64,000 bases of DNA. Origin: Candidatus Saccharimonadota bacterium. GTDB taxonomy: Bacteria > Patescibacteriota > Saccharimonadia > Saccharimonadales > Saccharimonadaceae. The notes under the pieces are model-generated. The model did not search any database. It was not told the origin of the DNA and saw nothing but the letters and a program-made list of their open reading frames with translations. The DNA lies in contig JAFWIQ010000015.1 of NCBI GenBank assembly GCA_017511865.1, positions 1 through 64,000 of the forward strand. The letters are read 5' to 3'. Below, piece by piece: positions 6,424 to 22,555 of this stretch; position 1 is the first letter of the stretch; every line of letters begins with the position of its first letter. Both the position numbers and the translations under genes were made by a program.

Positions 6424-7674
6424 ATGATTTATCTTGATCATGCGGCGGCAACGCCAGTGTCTCGGAAAGTTTTTGAGGCGATGGAGCCATATTTTTTGAG
6501 TGATTTTTTTAATCCGTCAGCGGCATATTTGCCGGCAAAAAAAGTAGCAGCTGATTATGAAGCCGCCAAAGCGACAATAGCGCATGCGATTGGCGCCAAG
6601 ACCTCCGATCTCGTTATTACCGCCGGTGCCACCGAGGCGAATAATCTTGCGTTTACAGCCATAAATGCGCGAGGACGAGTAGGCGATTTTTCGGGGACCG
6701 GCGTCGCTCCGGCCCGTCGTTACGGGCGGAGCGCGCCTTCATTCTCGGTCGTAACCTCCGGACATCCCCTCAAAATACCTACTCGCCCTCGCATTTTATA
6801 TCTTGTGACCGAACATGATTCGGTGCGGCGTGTGGCGGAGCAATACGGCGGAGAAGCGATTAGGGTTCTTCCGTCTGGACTAATCGATCTGGATGACTTA
6901 AAGACAAAAATTACCGATGAGACAGAGTTAATTTCAATTAGCCTGGCCAATAATGAGCTCGGCACGATTCAACCTCTGGCGGAGGTGGCCGGGATTATTC
7001 GTGAAGTCAAAATAGACAGAATGAAGCGAGGAATAAAGACTCAACTGCTACTACATTCAGATGCTTCGCAGGCTTTGAATTTACTGGATATTAACGTAGC
7101 AAGATTGGGGGTGGACTTATTGACCCTTAATGCGGCGAAAATCTATGGCCCGAAGGGAGTGGGAGCCTTATATGTATCGCACGATACCAAATTAAAGCCC
7201 CTAACGATGGGGGGTGGGCAGGAAAAAGGCTTGCGCAGCGGCACAGAAAATGTACCTGGAGTAATTGGTTTTGCAAAAGCAACAGAACTTGCAAGGGAGC
7301 ACCTAAACGGGAACCGCAAAAAATATGCATCTTGGCGAAAAATTTTGTTATCTGAATTACAGGGGTGCGAAATTATCAATAAAAAGCATACGCTTGACAA
7401 TTTTGTAGTTTTGTGCTATAATGGTATAGATGCAGAAAGATTAATCTTTCTTCTTGAAGAAAAAGGGGTGTATGTGGCGACTGGGGCAGCCTGTGCGGCT
7501 AGTAAAGGCCGAAAGTCACATGTACTAAAGGCGATTGGATTATCCGATGCGCAAATTGCAGGATCTTTAAGGATTTCTTTGGGCGAAACAAACACAGATG
7601 AGCAAATTCACGAGGCGGCAGAGATTATTAATTCAGTAGTGCAGTCCGAATACGAAAGGATTCGCCATGCCTAA
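6424..7674 (+). CDS. iscS: Cysteine desulfurase (NifS/IscS class V aminotransferase family)
   Basis: 416 residues. PLP-enzyme landmarks: YLDHAAATP at the start, GATEANNLA, SDASQA, the PLP lysine in AAKIYGPKG (the usual His before Lys is Ala here), RSGTENVPG, and the sulfur-accepting Cys in ATGAACAAS. It releases sulfur from cysteine as a persulfide. The next gene, mnmA, overlaps by 8 nt, so the likely job is feeding sulfur to tRNA 2-thiouridine. An extra segment of about 40 residues after NNLAFTAINA is encoded by a palindromic insert at 6669-6792. TGT-TATAAT ends 6 nt before the ATG (leaderless). Confidence 0.93.
   Translation: MIYLDHAAATPVSRKVFEAMEPYFLSDFFNPSAAYLPAKKVAADYEAAKATIAHAIGAKTSDLVITAGATEANNLAFTAINARGRVGDFSGTGVAPARRYGRSAPSFSVVTSGHPLKIPTRPRILYLVTEHDSVRRVAEQYGGEAIRVLPSGLIDLDDLKTKITDETELISISLANNELGTIQPLAEVAGIIREVKIDRMKRGIKTQLLLHSDASQALNLLDINVARLGVDLLTLNAAKIYGPKGVGALYVSHDTKLKPLTMGGGQEKGLRSGTENVPGVIGFAKATELAREHLNGNRKKYASWRKILLSELQGCEIINKKHTLDNFVVLCYNGIDAERLIFLLEEKGVYVATGAACAASKGRKSHVLKAIGLSDAQIAGSLRISLGETNTDEQIHEAAEIINSVVQSEYERIRHA
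6669..6792 (+). repeat. Palindromic element inserted in frame in the cysteine desulfurase gene
   Basis: Outer arms 6669-6696 and 6766-6792 are imperfect inverted repeats (about 24 of 28 positions pair). Inside is a second hairpin at 6705-6733 with the core CCCGTCGTTACGGG (6713-6726). The segment is GC-rich and low-complexity in translation (Arg/Gly/Ser/Pro). It falls where family members have only a short loop, so it adds residues without breaking the frame. The same 14-nt core occurs in an insert in obgE (22123-22136). Confidence 0.8.

Positions 7675-20976: not shown

Positions 20977-22555
<1,579 letters not shown>

Follow-up and report, generated by a model that had tools for sequence, protein, structure and literature searches.

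How a gene for a conserved enzyme comes to carry a long palindrome within its reading frame, and whether that palindrome belongs to the gene or to a dispersed family, is the question raised by positions 6669-6792 of the window (the whole stretch of 64,000 nucleotides analyzed here). An earlier note had described there a 124-bp palindrome lying within the reading frame of a cysteine desulfurase gene. The genome of the window has 600,719 bases and is 86% complete; most related records are Candidatus Saccharibacteria from the ruminant gut, and Ca. Nanosyncoccus alces is the closest one with a name. The reading that we lean towards, with some reserve, is that the palindrome represents a family of small, non-autonomous, palindromic elements confined to this genus, with several related cores of roughly 60-90 bp, and that its arms originate by template switching.

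The palindrome is real. Its outer arms (6669-6683 and 6778-6792) are 93% complementary over 15 nt and the two sides of the nested hairpin (6705-6714 and 6724-6733) are 90% complementary. Folded as DNA, the 134-nt stretch reaches -42.1 kcal/mol (z -6.0, with 0 of 200 dinucleotide shuffles as good), and as RNA -70.3 (z -6.5 against dinucleotide shuffles). The stem of the element runs from 6669 to 6697, paired with the 3' side. A GC-rich core of about 81 bp is flanked by the complementary arms, a small TC/TC internal loop (6691-6692, 6770-6771) being the border between locus-specific arms and shared core; the same loop is read from the alignment at the arm-core border of family A copies. The long outer arms, taken by the earlier note as parts of the element, are indeed paired, but they are private to the site and lie outside the repeated unit (Table 1).

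The host gene is of the NifS/IscS type and its ORF (6424-7674) is open throughout; the insertion is in frame, as had been claimed. In the alignment with A. fulgidus IscS2, query residues 82-123 stand opposite only residues 82-90, between a helix and a strand. Since some nine residues correspond there to the whole query segment, the insert does add residues, but the net gain is nearer 33 than the approximately 40 first proposed. The AlphaFold model of the enzyme has a moderate mean pLDDT of 64.9, with residues 83-118 without structure, and the insert is predicted to form an unstructured loop. Another element is found in the same window at 22087-22194, in frame in Obg, with 20-bp arms that are perfectly complementary and a fold z of -7.1.

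Table 1. Coordinates of the two elements and their host genes in the window.
Feature	Position	Strand	Basis or remark
Cysteine desulfurase (NifS/IscS type), host gene, 416 aa	6424..7674	+	ORF open throughout, reads across element
5' locus-specific arm	6669..6690	+	Pairing and fold; all other copies have another sequence here
Conserved mobile core, family A (TCGGGG ... CCCCTC)	6691..6771	+	96% identical copy in priA of own genome
Nested hairpin	6705..6733	+	Inverted-repeat pairing and fold
Apical hairpin CCCGTCGTTACGGG, common to core families A, B and C	6713..6726	+	Pattern searches and fold
Second small core hairpin CTCGGTCGTAACCTCCGG, diagnostic of family A	6743..6762	+	Fold; common to family A copies
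3' locus-specific arm	6772..6792	+	Pairing and fold
GTPase Obg/CgtA, second host gene, reads across another copy	21022..22533	-	ORF and identification
Second element, arm; coding-strand 3' arm = native Obg codons KILIV(D)	22087..22109	.	Alignment; fold
Second element, core; CCCGTCGTTACGGG at 22123-22136	22110..22170	.	Alignment and pattern search
Second element, other arm; coding-strand 5' arm = inverse of native codons	22171..22194	.	Alignment

The supposition that this is a dispersed palindromic element in the genes of a patescibacterium is borne out by further copies in the window's own genome. A DNA search with the 6669-6792 stretch recovered seven further sites there, the best with 96% identity over 85 bp in priA (C14:20034-20118). 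In the genomes sampled, this search gave matches in 22 of 23 other members of the genus, whereas the 16 genomes from other families gave none. Of 174 genus genomes, 151 contain the pattern CCCGTCGNNACGGG of the apical hairpin, reaching 39 matches per genome; the 12 matches in the window's genome answer the search for other core copies that the earlier note had suggested. As a control, the same pattern read backwards gives 0-1 matches in genus genomes. Outside the genus, in the order sample, most genomes have no match or a single one, and the maximum of 4 is reached in genera g24 and g34. These two genera are of the same family, a few of their genomes containing 2-4 matches. Six matches from outside the genus, none of them from g24 or g34, were inspected, presented neither arms nor core, and are chance matches. 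Among the genomes sampled and the outside matches inspected, the element family is restricted to the genus. Within one genome, identical 80-bp cores are found in different genes with a flank identity of 29%, which indicates that the core has spread recently. The sample of copies is defined by the 14-nt pattern, which under-counts core families D and E. The copies, taken as sequence stretches around the matches, come from a handful of rich genomes and of genes; because related copies lack independence, the counts are descriptive rather than a test.

Among 172 distinct copies, 155 lie inside frames that stay open for 150 aa or more. Both orientations and five of the six frames are used; in the sixth, a stop codon would arise from the common cores. 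The hosts include cysteine desulfurase, PriA, TruB, IleRS, ValRS, a UvrD-like helicase, an M1-type aminopeptidase, Obg, MnmA, TrmD and TypA, all but three of them named from sequence motifs recognised by eye. The elements sit in essential genes, and the proteins would be lengthened without breakage. Orthologues that lack the insert are known for cysteine desulfurase, Obg, MnmA, TrmD, TypA and ValRS; the comparison with relatives proposed in the earlier note has therefore yielded insert-free alleles, and the segment is not an ordinary conserved loop. Intergenic copies exist and likewise have arms. Selection for open frames in the core was considered and rejected, with 2-5 of 6 frames open and only core C above its shuffles.

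The arms pair within their own site and are unlike those of other sites. With strict arm scoring, the median score of own pairs is 14 against 6 for arms crossed between loci (n=172 copies), and 140 of the 172 exceed the 99th percentile of mismatched arm pairs; a looser test on 151 copies agrees. Aligned arms have a median length of 21, with about 95% of the aligned bases Watson-Crick, arm length being about 20 bp and sometimes 45. Some arms repeat native codons in inverse. At the Obg site, the conserved LIADLT coding sequence itself makes up the 3' arm, and its synonymous changes across species are mirrored in the 5' arm. In L047, the cysteine desulfurase stop and the mnmA start are inside one arm and the other arm is its inverse, while in TrmD of L089 the native 5' flank is altered and now matches the native 3' flank. 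At 10 of 53 testable sites, at least 3 conserved native residues fall within an arm (5' only in 4, 3' only in 2, both in 4), and at the remaining 43 neither arm has as many, so that a native source is shown for a minority of arms. This test relies on protein conservation, the DNA alignment of filled and empty sites being uninformative at these divergences. The possibility that the cores generally enter pre-existing hairpins was rejected at Obg and at the MnmA start, where one arm is native and the other an extra copy; it is possible at one intergenic terminator-like site (L019).

The arms also change in pairs. Nine family B inserts at one cysteine desulfurase codon align over 135 columns with no gap; 94.2% of their cells are paired, and 52 changed on both sides, against 20.1 in shuffles. 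Their covariation score is 0.425 against 0.180 for shuffled data, with 0 of 500 shuffles as high, falling to 0.04-0.11 when the pairing is slid by 1-3 columns; for the arms alone it is 0.576 against 0.276. On the coding strand, the arm cells comprise 107 Watson-Crick pairs, 1 G.T and 6 A.C, mispairs that make selection for mRNA pairing a poor explanation. The exchanges include A-T to T-A and G-C to C-G, for which there is no wobble path. Considering all copies, wobble mismatches on the coding strand are not above A.C; under strict scoring, G.T and A.C number 7 and 27 in same-strand copies and 27 and 14 in opposite-strand copies. When the strict arms are counted in core orientation, A.C reaches 54 and G.T 21, a strand asymmetry that does not depend on the strand of the gene; most of these mismatches lie no more than 16 nt from the core.

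What occupies this codon varies among close relatives. A tree of 86 cysteine desulfurases, built with the insert excluded and from the nearest relatives rather than a random sample, was labelled by core (A, B, C, D, E, reversed A or B, fragment, none, unclassified) and requires 36 label changes, against a mean of 39.2 for shuffled labels. Sister species have different cores or none (L028/L037, L035/L044, L033/L056). In L040, the family B core stands reversed between arms similar to those of relatives whose copy at this codon is forward; this is a single flipped-core case, and its arm identity with L044 is moderate (14/26 and 22/36). Core fragments persist in some short loops, as in L284, and in L252 a single arm and part of a B core are left at the place that core A occupies in its relative L049. 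A longer insert, type E, with long AT-rich arms, occupies the same codon in L048, L050, L068 and L237; in L068 there are 104 residues between the motifs.

Inverse copies of flanks, homogenised arms and whole-pair changes, with a possible spacer inversion in L040, suggest that the core is a switch point that makes and rewrites its own stem. Template switching is known to create stems, to produce instantaneous compensatory changes and to invert loops or spacers (PMC8794818, PMC8604942), and multi-base paired changes with almost no wobble intermediates are what we found here. We consider it somewhat more probable than its competitors taken together that a core family has spread mostly in genes and that template switching makes and rewrites the arms. 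The element would persist at tolerant surface loops that it has entered in frame. Its GC-rich core would lead the nascent strand to fold back or switch strands during replication, and one flank, copied in inverse onto the other, would become the arms, sometimes from native codons. Later switches would rewrite the arms as whole base pairs and occasionally flip the core, and together with deletion they could produce the fast turnover at the same codon. We infer that template switching is both maker and keeper of the arms, although several observations weigh against it. At 43 of the 53 sites neither arm holds three or more conserved native residues, which leaves many arms with no visible source. 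The spacer of 60-90 nt is longer than typical template-switch substrates, though self-folding. The family B inserts of equal length could partly be repeated independent insertions instead of one inherited copy, and the excess of A.C over G.T in core orientation is not predicted by the model. SbcD is part of a nuclease that cuts hairpins, and none of 148 order genomes has a match above the curated cut-off, whereas 13 of 14 control genomes do. Its absence may let long palindromes persist. It was rejected as the cause of the genus restriction, since SbcD is missing across the whole sampled order.

A dedicated enzyme could instead insert the core and leave an inverted target copy of about 20 bp, for example if the core hairpin caps a break and is then opened off-centre, the arms being made once, at insertion. 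The similar arm length (median 21 bp) in every family and both orientations, the native codons forming one arm at Obg, the MnmA start and TrmD, the TC/TC loop at the family A border and the turnover of core types at one codon would all suit such an enzyme. However, the searches made yielded no candidate: the Y1 transposase (PF01797) was found in only 8 of 170 genus genomes and not in the window's own, and no viral carrier was found, the four matches considered being chance ones in unrelated GC-rich phage contigs. Furthermore, arms of apparently homologous copies still change in pairs after insertion, and most tested sites have no arm that is visibly native. We regard this enzyme as rather unlikely, and a mobile element whose insertion reaction inversely duplicates the target, giving private arms, as slightly more doubtful still; if true, inverted target duplication would be a transposition chemistry undescribed in the literature searched. 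It is very unlikely that these are REP or other IS200/IS605-type elements moved by a REP-associated tyrosine transposase (RAYT). They are short palindromic repeats in many copies and their core contains CGTC, the tag of one REP superfamily (PMC3733652), but this motif lies within stem and loop rather than as an unpaired terminal tag, RAYT-type transposases are nearly absent from the genus, and the elements are mainly intragenic.

Very stable folds and strong covariation would also be expected of a functional mRNA structure (regulation, ribosome bypass or excision) with pairing under transcript selection. We find this improbable, because the coding strand has no wobble excess, both orientations and five frames are used, intergenic copies have arms too, sister species do without the element, and the inserts are stop-free and in frame, as expected if they are translated. 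An Rfam search returned no relevant match. Most of the genomes are metagenome-assembled and the loop is variable, which could speak for an artefact of bin assembly or for a protein loop that simply varies. Nevertheless, one and the same DNA core is found between genes as well as in unrelated genes, on both strands and in many independent assemblies, and inserts at one codon are of exactly equal length and change in pairs. The shared DNA core refutes the ordinary loop, and loop and artefact together are barely credible. Template switching at a dispersed core remains our preferred reading: the private complementary arms point to replication copying errors rather than to a known transposon. Judging from the sequences, we infer that whole-pair exchange, the flipped core and native-codon arms would be the signature of template switching and not of selection on mRNA structure.

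Known systems resemble the element to different degrees. Rickettsia palindromic elements (RPEs) and Wolbachia protein-coding palindromes are about 100-150 bp, strongly palindromic, of several families, present in many copies, and translated in frame with conserved genes, different groups occurring at the same locus in different species (PMC3767692, PMC10969869, PMC2229807). The Saccharibacteria element is likewise dispersed, palindromic, in frame, of several families and varied in type per locus; core and arms make about 124 bp, with many copies per genome, most of them in open frames with insert-free orthologues known. RPEs belong to a different phylum, have 12-bp terminal inverted repeats with no known target duplication (PMC2229807), and end in CGTC (PMC3733652). 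In the present element the outer arms are private and only the inner core stem is common, and private co-evolving arms are absent from the RPE descriptions in the literature surveyed. The likeness to RPEs first proposed is therefore fair as to mode of life but does not extend to the arms; the element appears to work like RPEs, compared side by side through published descriptions, and we do not file it as a member. Bacterial MITEs (Correia/NEMIS, ERIC, RUP, YPAL) are also small non-autonomous dispersed palindromic repeats, most having direct target-site duplications and terminal inverted repeats (PMC2229807). Here, in contrast, the flanks are inverted copies of each other, no direct duplication was noticed in the filled and empty alignments inspected, and the PF01797 search detected a transposase in only 8 of 170 genus genomes. 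REP elements with RAYT (GTAG and CGTC superfamilies) share short palindromes, high copy number and some copies in genes, but the present core is larger and more complex, has no unpaired tag, and is found where the Y1 transposase is nearly absent.

Quasipalindrome correction by template switch homogenises arms, produces multi-base compensatory changes and inverts spacers (PMC8604942, PMC8794818). Homogenised arms and paired multi-base changes are shared by our element, and the single reversed core of L040 may be an inverted spacer; known cases concern pre-existing short inverted repeats, while here the process is apparently tied to a dispersed mobile core. In Nematomorpha, mitochondrial genes contain coding palindromes in which both arms encode conserved protein regions (PMC6649704); these are similarly long inverted repeats in translated genes with both arms coding, and a dispersed core, as we see it in Saccharibacteria, is not mentioned for them. 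Our literature search found no report of such elements in Saccharibacteria. Protein-coding palindromes were previously described as a peculiarity of Rickettsia and Wolbachia, and Saccharibacteria offer an independent large case, with 174 genomes, up to 39 exact-core copies in one genome and essential genes as hosts. This case offers numerous natural experiments in the acceptance of foreign loops by proteins. Its arms seem to record template switching in coding DNA, from which rate, tract length and direction could be read by comparison. If so, covariation, normally read as proof of a functional RNA, can arise in plain coding DNA through mutation alone.

The gene neighbouring the cysteine desulfurase, mnmA, is insert-free in the window. 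In other genomes, including L028, L031, L045, L049, L224 and L258, it has been inserted repeatedly, by several core types, at two loops, one after HYAR and one before VRLRHRAPL.
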